From Verrucomicrobiia bacterium (GTDB lineage Bacteria; Zixibacteria; MSB-5A5; DSPP01), in assembly GCA_035574275.1 (NCBI GenBank), contig DATLYY010000042.1, positions 1 to 64,000 of the forward strand: 64,000 nucleotides of DNA, written 5' to 3'. Shown piece after piece: positions 9,815 through 55,025 of the stretch. The first letter of the stretch is position 1; every line of letters begins with the position of its first letter. The notes under the pieces were generated by a model, which saw nothing but the letters and a program-made list of their open reading frames with translations, was not told where the DNA came from and did no database searches. A program made the position numbers and the translations under genes.

Positions 9815-10174
9815 TCACTTTTCCTGCCGCAGGGCCCTCGGCCGCGGCTTGCCGTCGTGGCAGAAAACGCAGCTTATCTGCGGCGCCTCCTTGTAGCTGA
9901 AAAACTGGCTGTTCACCGTGTTGACCATCGTCTGCATCCGCCGCGCGGTCGTGAACTTGTCGTTATGCTCCTTGGCCCAGTCGTTCGGGTCGTGGCAGTA
10001 CTCGCACTTCACCCCCAGTTCCTTGTTGTAGGCCGCCATAATCCGCATCAGCTCGGCCTTGTCCGCCGGTTTCAAAACCTTCAAGTTCTTGAACCCCAAA
10101 TCCTGCGGAATGATCTGACGGGAGAAAAAGAGGGTTGCGGATAAAAGCAGAAGGGCAACGAGCGCTTTCTTCAT
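9815..10174 (-). CDS. Small periplasmic di-heme c-type cytochrome
   Basis: 119 residues with an N-terminal signal peptide (MKKALVALLLLSATLFFS). Two heme c motifs are present, CEYCH and CVFCH, about 50 residues apart, with LGVKCEYCHDPNDWAKE and RRMQTMVNTVNSQFF between them. This layout matches the family often labelled photosynthetic reaction-centre cytochrome c subunit-like, which is widespread in non-photosynthetic soil and sediment bacteria. It should be exported and act in electron transfer. Nothing in the neighbourhood identifies its partner. Its start lies 10 bases downstream of the rlmN stop on the same strand, so it may be co-transcribed with rlmN. Confidence 0.82.
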   Translation of the reverse strand: MKKALVALLLLSATLFFSRQIIPQDLGFKNLKVLKPADKAELMRIMAAYNKELGVKCEYCHDPNDWAKEHNDKFTTARRMQTMVNTVNSQFFSYKEAPQISCVFCHDGKPRPRALRQEK

Positions 10175-20090: not shown

Positions 20091-20828
20091 GTGTTTCTGA
20101 ATCCCGCCGAAATTTTTTTCTGCCTGGCCGCCGCTTTGGCCACCCTGCTCGGAGGATTTTTGGTCACCGCGGCGGGGAAACGGTACCGGGGATCGGTGAA
20201 ATACTTCATGGCCGTCGGCGCGGGGTTTCTGCTCGCCCTGGTGTTCGCCGAAGTGGTTCCCAGCACCTACCGCATCCTCAAGGGGAATTTCGTCTGGTGG
20301 TTTTTGGGGGGGTATCTCGTAATCCATCTGGTCGAACGGGCCTGGGTTTCGCATTTCCATTTCGGCGAGGAGGTGCATCCGGAAAAAATCTGGCTGGCGG
20401 GGGCGCCGGCCTCCGCCGGGCTGGCGTTGCATTCTTTTTTTGACGGCGTTTCCATTGCCGCGGCCACGCAGACTTCGCTGGTTTTGGGGAGTTTGATGTT
20501 CGTGGCCATTTCGCTCCACAAGCTGCCGGAGGGGTTCACCGTCGCTTCCTTGAATTTGGCTGCGGGGCATTCCGAAAAGCGGGCCTTGGGGTGGGCGGGG
20601 ATTTTGGGACTGGCCACCCTGCTCGGGATGTTCGTTTCGGGTTTTCTTTATGAATTCCGAATCCCGCTCTTAGCTTTTTCAGGCGGGGTGGCGCTCTACG
20701 TCGCGGCTTCCGATCTGGTGCCGGAGGTGAACCGGGAGCCGGGGGCCAAAATTCCGATTCTGGTTTCCGTCGGGGTTCTTCTGTTTTACTTCACGGAGCG
20801 GCTTTTGCATCACTGGCTGGAGGGGTGA
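20091..20828 (+). CDS. ZIP-family divalent metal transporter
   Basis: 245 residues with about eight membrane helices. The metal-site helices are HSFFDGVSIAAA (helix IV, His and Asp) and SLHKLPEGFTVA (helix V, HxxPE), as in GufA/ZupT-like ZIPs that import zinc or related metals. A His-rich patch HFHFGEEVH is in the central loop. The start is GTG 20091. There is no Shine-Dalgarno, but TTGACG at 20057 and TATCTT at 20079-20084 (16-base spacer) would start transcription at about the GTG itself. It is divergent from the liv operon. Confidence 0.88.
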   Translation: MFLNPAEIFFCLAAALATLLGGFLVTAAGKRYRGSVKYFMAVGAGFLLALVFAEVVPSTYRILKGNFVWWFLGGYLVIHLVERAWVSHFHFGEEVHPEKIWLAGAPASAGLALHSFFDGVSIAAATQTSLVLGSLMFVAISLHKLPEGFTVASLNLAAGHSEKRALGWAGILGLATLLGMFVSGFLYEFRIPLLAFSGGVALYVAASDLVPEVNREPGAKIPILVSVGVLLFYFTERLLHHWLEG

Positions 20829-35155: not shown

Positions 35156-35164
35156 AGAGTGAAG

Positions 35165-37744
35165 ATGCATATCACGGTTGAAGGAAAAAAAGTAGAGTTT
35201 TTGCCGGGACAGACGATTCTGGAAGCAGCCCTGGCGGCGGGATTCAAAATCCCGACCTACTGCTGGCATCCAAAACTGGACCCCGTGGGGGCCTGCCGGA
35301 TATGCTTTGTTGAACTTGAAAAATCCCCCAAGTTAGTCGTTTCCTGCTCCACCCCCGCGGTGGAGGGGCAGGTGGTCTGGATTGATTCCGAAAAAGCGAA
35401 AAAAGGACGGGCCGGGGTGACCGAATTTCTGCTCATCAACCATCCGCTCGACTGCCCGACCTGCGACAAGGGAGGGGAGTGCGAACTGCAGGATATCTCC
35501 TGGAAAAACGGCGGGGATGCCAGCCGGTTCGAGGAGCAAAAGTACCGTTTCATCGTGGATCGCAACTCGACGTTTGACGATTTATCCATCGGGCCGATGA
35601 TTGTGCGGAATCAAAACCGCTGTATCCACTGCTACAAATGCGTGCGCTTCAACAAAGAGATTGCTGGAGAGGGGGATTTGGGGGCCTTTCAGCGCGGCTA
35701 TCATACCGAAATCAATTCCATCGGGCCGGAGGGGATTGCCAACGAATACGCCGGAAACACGGTGGAAATTTGTCCGGTCGGGGCGCTCACGGCCAAGGAC
35801 TGGCGCTACAAAATCCGGGTCTGGCTGACGCAGAAAACACCCTCCGTCTGCAACCAGTGTTCGGACGGCTGCAACACGATGCTCTGGACTTCCGCTCAAA
35901 ATTTATACCGTATCACCTCCCGGCGGAACGACGCCGTGGACGAAGGGTGGATTTGCAACAAGGGGCGGTACAACTACCAGCTCGTCAACCACCCGGAGCG
36001 GCTGAAGAGGCCCTTGATTAAAAGGAGCGGAAAATTTGAAGAGGCCAGCTGGGATGAGGCGCTCGACTTTGCCGCCGGGCAGTTGGCCAAAATCCGGGAT
36101 GAGATGGGAGCGGATTTAATTGCCGGCATTACATCTCCCGTGCTGTCCAACGAAGACAACTACATTTTCCAGCGGTTCTTCCGGCAGGTTATCGGCACCA
36201 ACAACATTGATTTTCGGGTGCGGTTCGGGAAAAACGCGCCGCCTTCCGAACTTTTCCGGGACGCCGTACGCATCCGGATGGAAGAGATCGAAAAAGCCAA
36301 AGCGGTTCTGGTTTTGGGGATGGACCCGAACCGGGAGCACCCGATTTTGAATTTGCGGCTGCACAAGGCGAAAGCCCGCAATGGGACGGGGTTGTTTGTT
36401 GCTAACTCTCGCGGAGTCAAGCTCGGAGATTGGGCGGGCAGAAAGGCGGTTTACAAGCCGGGGATGGAACTTGGTTTCTTAAATTCGCTTTTGGCTGTAT
36501 TACTGAACGACAAAGTTTTGAAAGACATATCCAAGGAAACCGCCGGTTTGGCGAAAAAACTTGCTGACTGGTTGCCGGAAAAAACCAAAGAACAAACGGG
36601 CGTTGACGCTACGCAAGTAAAAGCGTGGGCGAAGAGCTGGGCGGCTGCAGGCGAACTCACCATTTTTCTGGGACGGGAAATTGCTTTACATCCGCAGCGG
36701 GAGGAGATTCTAAAAACGTGCCGGTTACTCTCCCATTTGATAAACGGCGCCGATGGGGCCGCCAAAAAAGTCAGCCTGCTCTTTGAAGAGGGAAACACGC
36801 AAGGGACGGCGGATGTCGGCTGTCTGCCGGACGTTCTGCCCGGATACCGCAAGGTCGGAGACAAGACGGGAGATTTTAACGACAAATGGGGGGAGGTTGC
36901 GCTGCCCGAAAAGGCGGGACGGGACGTTTTTGGGATGCTTTCCGCCGCACGAGAGCGTAAGCTTTCGGCCCTCGTGGTGATGGGACAGGATGTTCTCTTC
37001 TCTTTCCCGGACTATCACTTTGCGCGGGAGGCGATGGAGGCGACCGGCTTTATCGTTGTTATCGACCAGTTTATGACCCAGACCGCCAAGCTGGGGCACG
37101 TGGTTTTTCCCGCGGCGGCATACGTCGAAAAGGAAGGAACTTATACCAATTGGGAGCGGCGGGTGCAGCGCTTCCAGCGGGCCTACCGCCCGCTGGGGGA
37201 AGCACGGCCGGAGTGGCAAATTCTGGCCGATTTGGCCGACCGGATGGGGCGGCCATTTGCGCTCCATTCCCCACAAGGAGTTTTTAATGAACTTGCGCAC
37301 ATGATTCAGAGTTATGCAGGGATTACCTACGCCGATTTGGCGGGGGAGGGAAAAATTTGGGAAGGGAACGGCGCCAAGTCCGCCGCTTTCGAGGTTTTCA
37401 GCCCGAAGGAAATCGTCCCGGAAAAGAATTTTTCCATGCTTTTGGCGACCGGCAATTCGCTCCAACACTCCGGGATTCTGCATTTTCCGACCGAAAACCA
37501 GCAGCGCATCGAGCCGGAGCCGTATTTGGAGGTGAACACCGATGAACTTTTGAAAATGAAAAAATACAAGGGGGACCGGGTCAAAATCGTTTCATCCCTT
37601 GGCGAGATTGAAGCGCGCGTGCGGCCGTCGGAGCTTCTGCCCCCGAACGTGGTTTTTTTGCCGGAGAATTTTCCGCAGGCGCAGTTGAACAAATTGATGA
37701 AATGGGACAGACCGTATTTGTGGGTGAGATTGGAAAATGCTTGA
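35165..37744 (+). CDS. nuoG: NADH-quinone oxidoreductase subunit G
   Basis: About 859 residues, the large electron-transfer subunit. N-terminal [2Fe-2S] domain (CWHPKLDPVGACRICFVE, VVSC), NADH-G domain with HPLDCPTCDKGGECELQD, two [4Fe-4S] sites (RCIHCYKCVRF, VEICPVGALT), then a molybdopterin-oxidoreductase-like region starting VCNQCSDGCNT, which may carry cluster N7 (Cxx C xxx C). ATG 35165 gives the usual MHITVEGKKVEF start; GTG 35159 would add two residues. The end overlaps nuoH by eight bases. Confidence 0.95.
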   Translation: MHITVEGKKVEFLPGQTILEAALAAGFKIPTYCWHPKLDPVGACRICFVELEKSPKLVVSCSTPAVEGQVVWIDSEKAKKGRAGVTEFLLINHPLDCPTCDKGGECELQDISWKNGGDASRFEEQKYRFIVDRNSTFDDLSIGPMIVRNQNRCIHCYKCVRFNKEIAGEGDLGAFQRGYHTEINSIGPEGIANEYAGNTVEICPVGALTAKDWRYKIRVWLTQKTPSVCNQCSDGCNTMLWTSAQNLYRITSRRNDAVDEGWICNKGRYNYQLVNHPERLKRPLIKRSGKFEEASWDEALDFAAGQLAKIRDEMGADLIAGITSPVLSNEDNYIFQRFFRQVIGTNNIDFRVRFGKNAPPSELFRDAVRIRMEEIEKAKAVLVLGMDPNREHPILNLRLHKAKARNGTGLFVANSRGVKLGDWAGRKAVYKPGMELGFLNSLLAVLLNDKVLKDISKETAGLAKKLADWLPEKTKEQTGVDATQVKAWAKSWAAAGELTIFLGREIALHPQREEILKTCRLLSHLINGADGAAKKVSLLFEEGNTQGTADVGCLPDVLPGYRKVGDKTGDFNDKWGEVALPEKAGRDVFGMLSAARERKLSALVVMGQDVLFSFPDYHFAREAMEATGFIVVIDQFMTQTAKLGHVVFPAAAYVEKEGTYTNWERRVQRFQRAYRPLGEARPEWQILADLADRMGRPFALHSPQGVFNELAHMIQSYAGITYADLAGEGKIWEGNGAKSAAFEVFSPKEIVPEKNFSMLLATGNSLQHSGILHFPTENQQRIEPEPYLEVNTDELLKMKKYKGDRVKIVSSLGEIEARVRPSELLPPNVVFLPENFPQAQLNKLMKWDRPYLWVRLENA

Positions 37745-50051: not shown

Positions 50052-50414
50052 ATGGCGGAGATGGTTCAGAATACCGGCGTGGAGCCGGAAGGTAAAATTT
50101 TAGTCACGGAAACGGCGGTACGCGAAATCAAAAAAATTCTTTCGCAGCAGGCCCCGGGCACATTTTTGCGCGTTGGCGTCAAGGGGGGCGGTTGTTCCGG
50201 GCTTTCCTATCTGATGAATCTGGACACGCAGACGGGAGAGCTGGACCGGTCGTTTATGTTCGGCGATGTCAAGGTGGTTGTGGACGCCAAGGCGCTCGTG
50301 TACCTGAACGGGCTGACCTTGGATTACACGGGCGATTTGCTAAACGGCGCCTTCCGTTTCAACAACCCGCAGGCCAAACGGAGTTGCGGCTGCGGCAGTT
50401 CATTTTCTGTCTAA
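50052..50414 (+). CDS. HesB/IscA-family iron-sulfur carrier (SufA/ErpA-like)
   Basis: 120 residues. A-type carrier with the three conserved Cys in GGGCSGLSYLM and CGCGSSF. N-terminal ILVTETAVREIKKILS and central VVVDAKALVYLNGLTLDYTGDLLNGAFRFNNPQA are canonical. It should accept Fe-S clusters from a scaffold and hand them to apo-proteins, complex I being a large nearby client. Which subtype (IscA, SufA, ErpA) cannot be told. Confidence 0.92.
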   Translation: MAEMVQNTGVEPEGKILVTETAVREIKKILSQQAPGTFLRVGVKGGGCSGLSYLMNLDTQTGELDRSFMFGDVKVVVDAKALVYLNGLTLDYTGDLLNGAFRFNNPQAKRSCGCGSSFSV

Positions 50415-50416
50415 AA

Positions 50417-50662
50417 ATGGAAGTCATCGATTTTGCTGATTTGGCCTCCGGCGGGGTGGTGCAGGAAGAGTCGTTTGTCAAAACACTTTCCGGACTGGCG
50501 TGGGACAAATATCAAGGCAAGGATGTCCTCATCCGGGGCTGTGCCTCGTTTCCCGTGCCGACTTGGGCTTATATGATGCTTGCAGCCCGGCTGGCGGGGG
50601 TGGCGAAAACCATTGCCTACGGCGAGGAGAAAAACCCGCTTCCCATTTATCAGAAGTCGTGA
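50417..50662 (+). CDS. Compact DUF2480-family protein
   Basis: 81 residues. LSGLAWDKYQGKDVLIRGCASFPVPTWAYMMLAARLAGVAKTIAYG matches the conserved half of DUF2480 proteins, where YQGK...PTWAYMLL is diagnostic. Typical members are about 160-170 residues, so this is a short version. DUF2480 has no known activity; its place between HesB/IscA and ferredoxin suggests an Fe-S-related job. It starts two bases after the HesB stop. Confidence 0.75.
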   Translation: MEVIDFADLASGGVVQEESFVKTLSGLAWDKYQGKDVLIRGCASFPVPTWAYMMLAARLAGVAKTIAYGEEKNPLPIYQKS

Positions 50663-52209: not shown

Positions 52210-52226
52210 AACATCGAGGAGATGGA

Positions 52227-53291
52227 ATGACACCAGCGGAAAAGGCCTGCCGGATAACCGCCTTCGCCCGGTCGGGCGGTTGAGCAGGAAAGGTAAGTCC
52301 GGTGGACTTACACGACATCGTCCATAGTTTGGACATACCGAAGAACGAGGCGGTTTTGGTGGGGGTGGAGACCGCCGACGACGCCGGGGTGTATCATCTC
52401 ACCGATGAAATCAACCTGGTGCAGACGGCGGATTTCATCACGCCGCCCGTGGACGACCCGTTTTTGTTCGGCAAAATAGCGGCGGCCAATTCCCTTTCGG
52501 ACGTATACGCGATGGGGGGGCGTCCGCTGACGGCTCTCAATCTGTGCTGTTTTCCTTCGGCCGGCGTTGATAAGGAACATCTGACGGGGATTCTGCGCGG
52601 CGGGCTGGAAGCAATAAAGGAAGCGGGCGCGGCCTTGGTCGGCGGACATACGGTCAAAGACGAGGAGCTGAAATACGGGCTTTCAGTAACCGGCATCGTG
52701 CGCAAAGCGGATATCAAGCGGAATTCAACGGCCAAAGCCGGTGACCAACTAATTTTGACCAAGCCGATTGGCACGGGGGTAATCGTCTCCGGCACGCGCA
52801 GAGGACTTTTGCCTCCCGATGGGGTTATCCGCCGCGCCGCTGAACATATGTCGAAATTAAATGCCACGGCTTCCAAACGAATGGTGGAATTCGGCGTATC
52901 CGCTTGCACGGACGTAACCGGTTTTGGGCTGGCGGGGCACGGTTATGAAATGGCGAAGGGTTCGAAAGTGGGGATTCGTTTTTGGGCGAACAAGGTGCCG
53001 CATTACCCGGAAAGTTTGGAAATGATTCGGCAGGGGGTGCGCACCGGCCTTACCAACCCGAACTTTCATTCAGTCGAAGGACACTTCAAATCTGATTCCT
53101 CGTTGCCGGAAGAACTGGTGGGGCTTTTCTTTGACCCGCAAACGTCCGGAGGGCTGTTGATTTCGATTGCCACCGAAAAAGCCAAAGGGCTTTTGGATAC
53201 CCTGCACAAAGACGGCATTAAAGAAGCATCCATTATTGGTGAGGTTTTTGTCTCTTCCGAGCCGCAAATTCTTCTTGAAATGGCACATTGA
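52227..53291 (+). CDS. selD: Selenide, water dikinase - a selenoprotein (Sec at codon 19, TGA 52281-52283)
   Basis: Makes selenophosphate from selenide and ATP, the selenium donor for selenocysteine and selenouridine. The frame from ATG 52227 (behind GAGGAGATGGA) runs RITAFARSGG-TGA-AGKVSPVDLHDI, so TGA falls exactly where SelD has its catalytic Cys/Sec, three residues before the catalytic Lys. Beyond it follow AVLVGVETADDAGVYHL, LVQTADFITPPVDDPFLFGKIAAANSLSDVYAMGG, LVGGHTVKD, TDVTGFGLAGHGYEMAKGS and FDPQTSGGLLIS, all SelD hallmarks. Total 354 residues including Sec. A start at GTG 52302, downstream of the TGA, would delete the active site. A hairpin fitting a bacterial SECIS follows the TGA. 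Confidence 0.94.
52293..52311 (+). promoter_or_regulatory. Bacterial SECIS element in selD
   Basis: GTAAGTCC-GGT-GGACTTAC: perfect 8-bp stem with a GGU apical loop, starting nine bases after the TGA, loop at 18-20 bases after it. Size, distance and the G/U loop agree with SelB-binding SECIS hairpins. It also encodes residues 23-28. Confidence 0.88.
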
Positions 53292-53357: not shown

Positions 53358-55025
53358 ATGAACGCGGATAATCCCCGGAACCGGATTGACAAACCGATTG
53401 GGGAAATTGCCGCCTCCGCCGGGTTGGCGGGGGACGAATTAATCCTATACGGACAGACCAAAGCAAAAGTACGCTTGGAAACATGGGAACGTCTCAAGAA
53501 CAAGCCTGACGGCAAATTGATTTTGGTAACCGGTATCACGCCGACCCCCGCGGGAGAGGGAAAAACCACCGTTGCCATCGGGATGGCGGACGCCCTGCGG
53601 CGGCTCGGAAAAAAATCGCTGGTAACCTTGCGCGAGCCCTCCTTGGGGCCTGTTTTTGGCATGAAAGGAGGGGCCACGGGAGGAGGAAAGGCCAAAGTTA
53701 TTCCGGAAGATGAAATCAATCTACATTTCACGGGGGACTTTCATGCCGTAACAGCCGCGCACAATCTTTTGTCCGCCCTTTTGGACAACCACCTGCATCA
53801 CGGCAATGTCTTGGATTTCGATATGCGCCGCACGATTTGGAAGCGGGCTTTGGACGTGAATGACCGGGCTTTGCGCCGGATTGTCGTGGGATTGGGAGGA
53901 CGGGAAGGGAGCTATCCCCGTGAGGATCGCTTCGACATCACCGCCGCCAGCGAATTGATGGCCATTTTGTCTTTGGCCAAAAGCCGGGAGGAGTTGAAGG
54001 AGCGAATCGCCAACATCATCGTCGGTTTCACCCGAACGGGCGGCGCCCCCATCCGCGCATCGGAACTGAACGGCGCAGGTGGGATGGCGGCTTTACTGCG
54101 GGATGCCTTGGCCCCCAATCTGGTGCAGACGGCGGAGGGAACTCCGGCCTTCGTACATTGCGGCCCGTTTGCCAACATTGCACACGGCTGCAATTCGATT
54201 CTGGCCACCCGCTTTGCCCTCAAGCTGGGGGATTTCGTCCTGACGGAAGCCGGCTTCGGCTCCGATTTGGGCGGGGAGAAGTTTCTGGACATCTTTTGCC
54301 CGTCAGGCGGTTTTAAACCGGCGGCTGCCGTCCTGGTTGCGACCGTACGCGCCTTGAAATTTCACGGCGGGTGCAAGCGCAGTGAGCTGGACAAGGAAAA
54401 CACGGAAGCGGTGGAGCGCGGGTTTTCCAACCTTGTCCATCATCTGGGAATTTTAGGAACGTTTGGCCTGCCGGCGCTGGTCGCCATCAACCGGTTTACG
54501 AGTGACACGGAAGCGGAGCTGAAAGTTGTCGAGCATCGGCTTGCGGATATGAACCAGCCGACGGCGCGCTGCGAGGCGTTCGCGATGGGTTCCGAGGGGG
54601 CGGTGGAAGCGGCGGAGCAATTGGCAAAACTGGTGGAGACGCAAAAATCGGACTACCATCCGCTTTACACGGCGGAAATGCCCTTGGCGGAAAAAATCGA
54701 GACCGTGGCCACACACATCTACGGCGCCGACGGGGTGCACTACTCCGGGCGCAGCGCCCGCCAGTTGGAGGAATGCGCGGAGATGGGGTTCGGCAATAAT
54801 TTTGTTTGCATTGCCAAAACGCCCTATTCCTTCGGCGACGATCCAAAGAAAGGGCACCAGCCCGCCAAACACAAAATCACGATCCGCGAAGTGCGGCTTT
54901 TGGGAGGAGCCGGGTTTGTGGTGCCGATTGCCGGGGAGATTTTGACGATGCCGGGGCTGCCGAAAGTTCCCGCCGCCGAGCAAATCGATTTGCTCCCGGA
55001 CGGCACCATAGCCAATCTGGTGTAA
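53358..55025 (+). CDS. fhs: Formate--tetrahydrofolate ligase
   Basis: 555 residues. Activates formate with ATP to give 10-formyl-THF. The P-loop-like GITPTPAGEGKTTVAIGMADALRRLGK is diagnostic, as are REPSLGPVFGMKGGATGGGKAKVIPEDEINLHFTGD, HLHHGN, ITAASELMAIL and VRALKFHGG. It feeds purine synthesis or, in acetogens, the methyl branch of the Wood-Ljungdahl pathway; no other pathway gene is here. AAAGGA is eight bases upstream of the ATG. Confidence 0.97.
   Translation: MNADNPRNRIDKPIGEIAASAGLAGDELILYGQTKAKVRLETWERLKNKPDGKLILVTGITPTPAGEGKTTVAIGMADALRRLGKKSLVTLREPSLGPVFGMKGGATGGGKAKVIPEDEINLHFTGDFHAVTAAHNLLSALLDNHLHHGNVLDFDMRRTIWKRALDVNDRALRRIVVGLGGREGSYPREDRFDITAASELMAILSLAKSREELKERIANIIVGFTRTGGAPIRASELNGAGGMAALLRDALAPNLVQTAEGTPAFVHCGPFANIAHGCNSILATRFALKLGDFVLTEAGFGSDLGGEKFLDIFCPSGGFKPAAAVLVATVRALKFHGGCKRSELDKENTEAVERGFSNLVHHLGILGTFGLPALVAINRFTSDTEAELKVVEHRLADMNQPTARCEAFAMGSEGAVEAAEQLAKLVETQKSDYHPLYTAEMPLAEKIETVATHIYGADGVHYSGRSARQLEECAEMGFGNNFVCIAKTPYSFGDDPKKGHQPAKHKITIREVRLLGGAGFVVPIAGEILTMPGLPKVPAAEQIDLLPDGTIANLV

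Follow-up and report, generated by a model that had tools for sequence, protein, structure and literature searches.

The selD gene of the window is almost certainly a selenoprotein gene. By the window we mean the whole stretch of DNA that was analysed (64,000 nucleotides, contig DATLYY010000042.1). Translation of this gene would begin at ATG 52227, and UGA 52281 would be decoded as Sec by means of a hairpin at 52293-52311. The Sec system of the lineage likely serves SelD and, at least partly, an undescribed family of selenoproteins, represented in the same genome by a small membrane protein named here the C75 protein.

The selD gene and its in-frame TGA

The selD locus presents the following features.

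52216..52221, + strand: Shine-Dalgarno-like GAGGAG, 5 nt before ATG 52227
52227..53291, + strand: selD, selenide water dikinase (selenophosphate synthetase), 354 residues with the predicted Sec at position 19
52281..52283, + strand: in-frame TGA, predicted to be read as Sec19, at the catalytic Cys/Sec column of SelD; TGA there in relatives
52290..52292, + strand: AAG, Lys22, the K of the UxxK motif; column invariant in the alignment of class SelDs
52293..52311, + strand: hairpin predicted to act as a bacterial SECIS, with a stem of 8 bp and, 17 nt after the UGA, a GGU loop (52301-52303)
52293-52300 (GTAAGTCC) and 52304-52311 (GGACTTAC), + strand: arms of the hairpin, loop GGT 52301-52303
52302..52304, + strand: GTG, start picked by a standard gene caller and judged false; it sits within the hairpin and omits the catalytic residue and Lys22

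In the read-through translation, TGA 52281-52283 (codon 19) is the sole interruption of the frame opened by ATG 52227. After this codon, the frame is open down to its own stop, TGA 53289-53291. The protein matches TIGR00476 with 357.5 bits (cut-off 125), over profile positions 1-310 of 311. Two SelDs of solved structure match it as well, 2yye (E 2e-73) and 3u0o (E 5e-68). The similarity to SelD flanks the TGA on both sides.

The context of the TGA is S-G-G-U-A-G-K-V-S-P-V-D-L. Its U column aligns with the C of R-S-S-G-C-A-A-K in 2yye and of G-A-G-C-G-C-K in 3u0o, and in the latter the K of GCGCK corresponds to Lys22. The Sec/Cys-x-x-Lys of the SelD N-terminal loop is present as GG-U-AGK. The original prediction had placed the TGA at this catalytic position, with similarity on either side. 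Translation, profile and structure alignments show that it was correct to the base. It had also stated that a gene caller would choose GTG 52302 and lose the active site; the mechanical ORF list does start there.

Several observations concern the neighborhood of the gene. At window 50414-50662, an 82-aa ORF matches DUF2480 over the final third of the profile alone (positions 100-165 of 165). It lies between an IscA-type gene and a ferredoxin, and represents a shortened or split DUF2480 protein. A formate-tetrahydrofolate ligase gene occupies window 53358-55025, between selD and a DUF1015 gene. The congener does not have it at this spot, and presents about 2.8 kb extra immediately upstream of selD.

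The hairpin after the TGA

A perfect 8-bp hairpin, GUAAGUCC-GGU-GGACUUAC, begins 9 nt after the TGA, and all its pairs are Watson-Crick. Such a hairpin, with a GGU loop and nine bases past the TGA, had been described beforehand and is confirmed in the sequence. The published bSECIS criteria consist of a loop of 3-9 nt, a stem of 4-16 bp, a G in the first two loop bases, a distance of 16-37 nt from the UGA and an MFE <= -7.5 (PMC13188914 Fig. 2A). The values of the window hairpin lie within all these constraints (loop 3 nt, stem 8 bp, GGU, spacing 17 nt). The fold energy is -10.4 kcal/mol from the UGA to +40, and -9.0 for the bare hairpin.

Among the 1593 TGA triplets of the window, 7 (0.4%) are followed by a perfect Watson-Crick stem of at least 8 bp with a G in the first two loop bases and SECIS spacing. 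A hairpin of equal or greater stability is found after 3.3% of them. Dinucleotide shuffles of the 40-nt hairpin stretch give z = -1.9. This stability is only moderately unusual, so the hairpin by itself is weak evidence. It is convincing because it is conserved across relatives and placed at the catalytic column.

Conservation of the TGA and the hairpin in relatives

We made a class-wide protein search for SelD in 133 genomes and obtained a match in 125. A copy of selD with the in-frame TGA is present in about 110 of the 133 (count from the search table). We inspected 30 loci. The TGA is at the catalytic column in 28, and the other two (L043 and L049) are Cys copies that read CACK. Among 80 named SelDs of many phyla, a sample biased towards the query, the column consists of 63 U and 17 C. 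In relatives, this column is therefore Sec or Cys. The SelD of a Candidatus Zixiibacteriota genome (L132, JAUVAR010000026.1) has 61-66% identity to class members and shares the signature KLTAEV.CAGUASK. From this resemblance, the class probably belongs to Zixiibacteriota.

The hairpin region of 12 relatives from four families was aligned. The cells of the 8-pair stem are paired in 91.7% of cases, versus 83.6% in shuffles, and 0 of 500 shuffles were as high. When the partners are slid one column, pairing falls to 51%. Two-sided changes occur at 3 of the 8 stem pairs, with a covariation score of 0.33 versus 0.17. Part of this conservation may be driven by the protein, since the stem partly encodes the conserved S/G-P-V-D-L motif. 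In the L033 hairpin, a U-A pair is replaced by C-G; the first change is silent, and the second one turns Asp into Gly. There, the base pair is kept at the cost of the protein motif.

In more distant families of the class, the hairpins of Sec-SelD are in a register 3 nt further on. They often have GGU or GUU loops, as in GCCAGC-GGU-GCUGGC and GGCCAAA-GUU-UUUGGCC. Neither of the two Cys-SelD copies examined (L043, L049) presents a stable hairpin.

The Sec-decoding machinery

The window genome is a draft of 2.51 Mb in 79 contigs, 99.9% complete. It carries selC, selA and selB in a row at G000:C22:68869-72181. selC (68.4 bits) is a tRNA-Sec, for which ARAGORN gives the anticodon TCA. selA is an ORF of 477 codons (E 1e-124), and selB encodes 619 aa with 354 bits summed over its stretches (cut-off 242). 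With selD, the Sec-decoding trait is complete. The prediction that this lineage encodes SelA, SelB and tRNA-Sec is borne out by these adjacent genes. The absence of selB or selC from the genome would have spoken against a selenoprotein; both are present, as they are in the congener (G001).

Binding of SelB and Sec-tRNA-Sec to bacterial SECIS elements, and UGA decoding by them, are established. In the window gene, SelB carrying Sec-tRNA-Sec would bind the hairpin, and the UGA would become Sec at the catalytic position of SelD. SelD would then make selenophosphate from selenide and ATP, and SelA would use the selenophosphate to produce more Sec-tRNA. From what is known of the family, we infer both the Sec insertion itself and the enzyme activity. 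This system would be autocatalytic, since the production of SelD needs its own product. Likewise, selD expression would depend on selenium and on earlier SelD, because SelD supplies the selenophosphate needed by SelA. The only rhodanese in the window genome is a 110-aa protein with no SelU-type match, and gives no sign of selenouridine use. So, selenophosphate is likely used mainly for making Sec.

Alternative explanations

It is very improbable that GTG 52302 is the true start and that the upstream part is untranslated, even though this codon is the default start in the standard ORF list and AGGAAAGG lies at a usable distance before it. Codons 1-18 of selD evolve as coding sequence. Compared with the congener, they present four substitutions, all third-position and synonymous; the 54 nt that precede the ATG carry 13 changes. 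ATG 52227 is preceded by a strong Shine-Dalgarno, and the congener keeps GAGGAGATGGA-ATG (Shine-Dalgarno and start) despite the upstream divergence. A start at GTG 52302 would also drop the catalytic column and Lys22, which is invariant in SelD. Moreover, the upstream segment and the TGA are kept in families where the context of GTG 52302 differs. An intact stop followed by a downstream start in close relatives had been named as the observation that would contradict the Sec reading, and no such form was found among them.

An in-frame stop is the usual mark of decay or error, and the assembly is a draft. Nevertheless, we give hardly any weight to a pseudogene or to a sequencing error at the TGA. 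The identical TGA column in independent genomes throughout the class refutes both. Apart from this codon the frame is uninterrupted, and the hairpin shows covariation. Still less credible is a genome-wide reassignment of TGA (for example, to Trp), which would likewise yield an open selD frame and make the SECIS unnecessary. The use of TGA as a stop refutes it: of 376 long non-overlapping ORFs counted over 461 kb, 128 terminate in TGA, and so does selD. In homologues, the SelD column is Cys or Sec, never Trp, and the complete Sec machinery is present. Decoding of UGA 52281 as Sec is the reading that we retain.

Search for other selenoproteins

In the window genome, the searches with PF00578, PF00581, PF00374 and TIGR01591 gave no member with a TGA. 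The FdhA, NiFe hydrogenase, rhodanese and peroxiredoxin families, among the commonest bacterial selenoprotein carriers, have no such member there, and NiFe hydrogenase is absent. A formate dehydrogenase alpha match at window 35159-37744 corresponds to a NuoG-type subunit, whose frame contains no TGA. The best-scoring other TGA-bridged frame of the window, at 20826, resembles two distinct genes that share a frame. The one at 9817 is intergenic, and its hairpin, of 11 bp, is terminator-like. We discarded both. An Rfam gathering scan of the window returned no matches. The congener encodes a peroxiredoxin (L150:4077-4550, G001:C5) whose catalytic Cys position is a TGA (S-W-T-G-V-U-T-A-E-M), with a hairpin that may be a SECIS. 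This protein has no orthologue in the window genome.

We also scanned 461 kb (18%) of the genome, free of homology, for TGA-bridged coding frames with a hairpin. The scan yielded selD and one further convincing case, outside the window.

G000:C75:73292-73651 (= L162:13292-13651): C75 protein, 119 residues, TGA at 73484

By hydropathy only, the C75 protein has about three hydrophobic stretches. The class search found relatives, of about 110-120 residues, in nine other genomes: eight have the TGA, and one (G094, L179) has Cys (TGT) in the same column. The family motif is (E)KT-U/C-V...RG.RN(L/M)D. All nine TGA members, the window genome included, present a hairpin of 5-6 bp whose loop lies 17-18 nt past the UGA, and several of these bare hairpins are weaker than -7.5 kcal/mol. 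In the Cys member, the corresponding hairpin is disrupted, and a different weak hairpin can be drawn. Between the window genome and the congener, this gene varies most at third codon positions on either side of the TGA (29/53 and 20/34). One relative (L184:1501-1740, G111) shows three in-frame TGAs and an early stop. It may be a decayed copy, or a protein with several Sec residues.

The C75 protein has no Pfam match, and its NCBIfam scores are only sub-threshold and unrelated to selenoproteins; the models of these two collections represent most of the 119 catalogued selenoprotein families. No entry of this catalogue of prokaryotic families fits it (PMC13188914). A search of 50 named genomes of other lineages, made with no positive control, gave no match to the family. 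The C75 protein thus probably belongs to a selenoprotein family not described before, for which a membrane-bound thiol/selenol redox role would be a guess. The original prediction had expected other hidden selenoproteins in this lineage. The C75 protein is one strong candidate in the window genome, and the congener has the Sec-peroxiredoxin.

Relation to known systems and significance

The window selD adds a member to the already known Sec-SelD family. Sec-SelD with UxxK is an experimentally verified and widespread selenoprotein family, the second most widespread in bacteria (PMC13188914), so its presence here is unsurprising. In a reference set of 223 genomes, 19% of SelDs carry Sec (PMC4561486). 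The window gene shares with the known Sec-SelD (TIGR00476) the family, the Sec column, Sec-A-G-K, a hairpin right after the UGA and the machinery. It differs in lineage and in hairpin details, and no functional difference was found. Compared with the bSECIS consensus (PMC13188914 Fig. 2A), the hairpin is alike in its 3-nt loop starting with G, its 8-bp stem, its 17 nt and its fold below -7.5 kcal/mol. However, the stem sequence is lineage-specific, and other class families are shifted by 3 nt.

Some genomes of the class have, beside Sec-SelD, a second SelD domain of Cys type in a long frame (fusion type; L043, L049). The class copies with no stops are mostly within such frames, of 730-780 aa. 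Their SelD domain is homologous to the window SelD, but it has Cys at the column (CACK), lacks the hairpin and is part of a long frame. They can be compared with the reported NADH dehydrogenase-SelD fusions (PMC4561486).

A literature search on selenoproteins in Zixibacteria yielded only a passing mention of both. In this large uncultured bacterial class, Sec decoding with a SelD that is itself a selenoprotein is nearly universal. Standard annotation there would remove the catalytic N-terminus of SelD. Finally, the follow-up of selD opened the way to another gene of this genome, which likely represents a new selenoprotein family.
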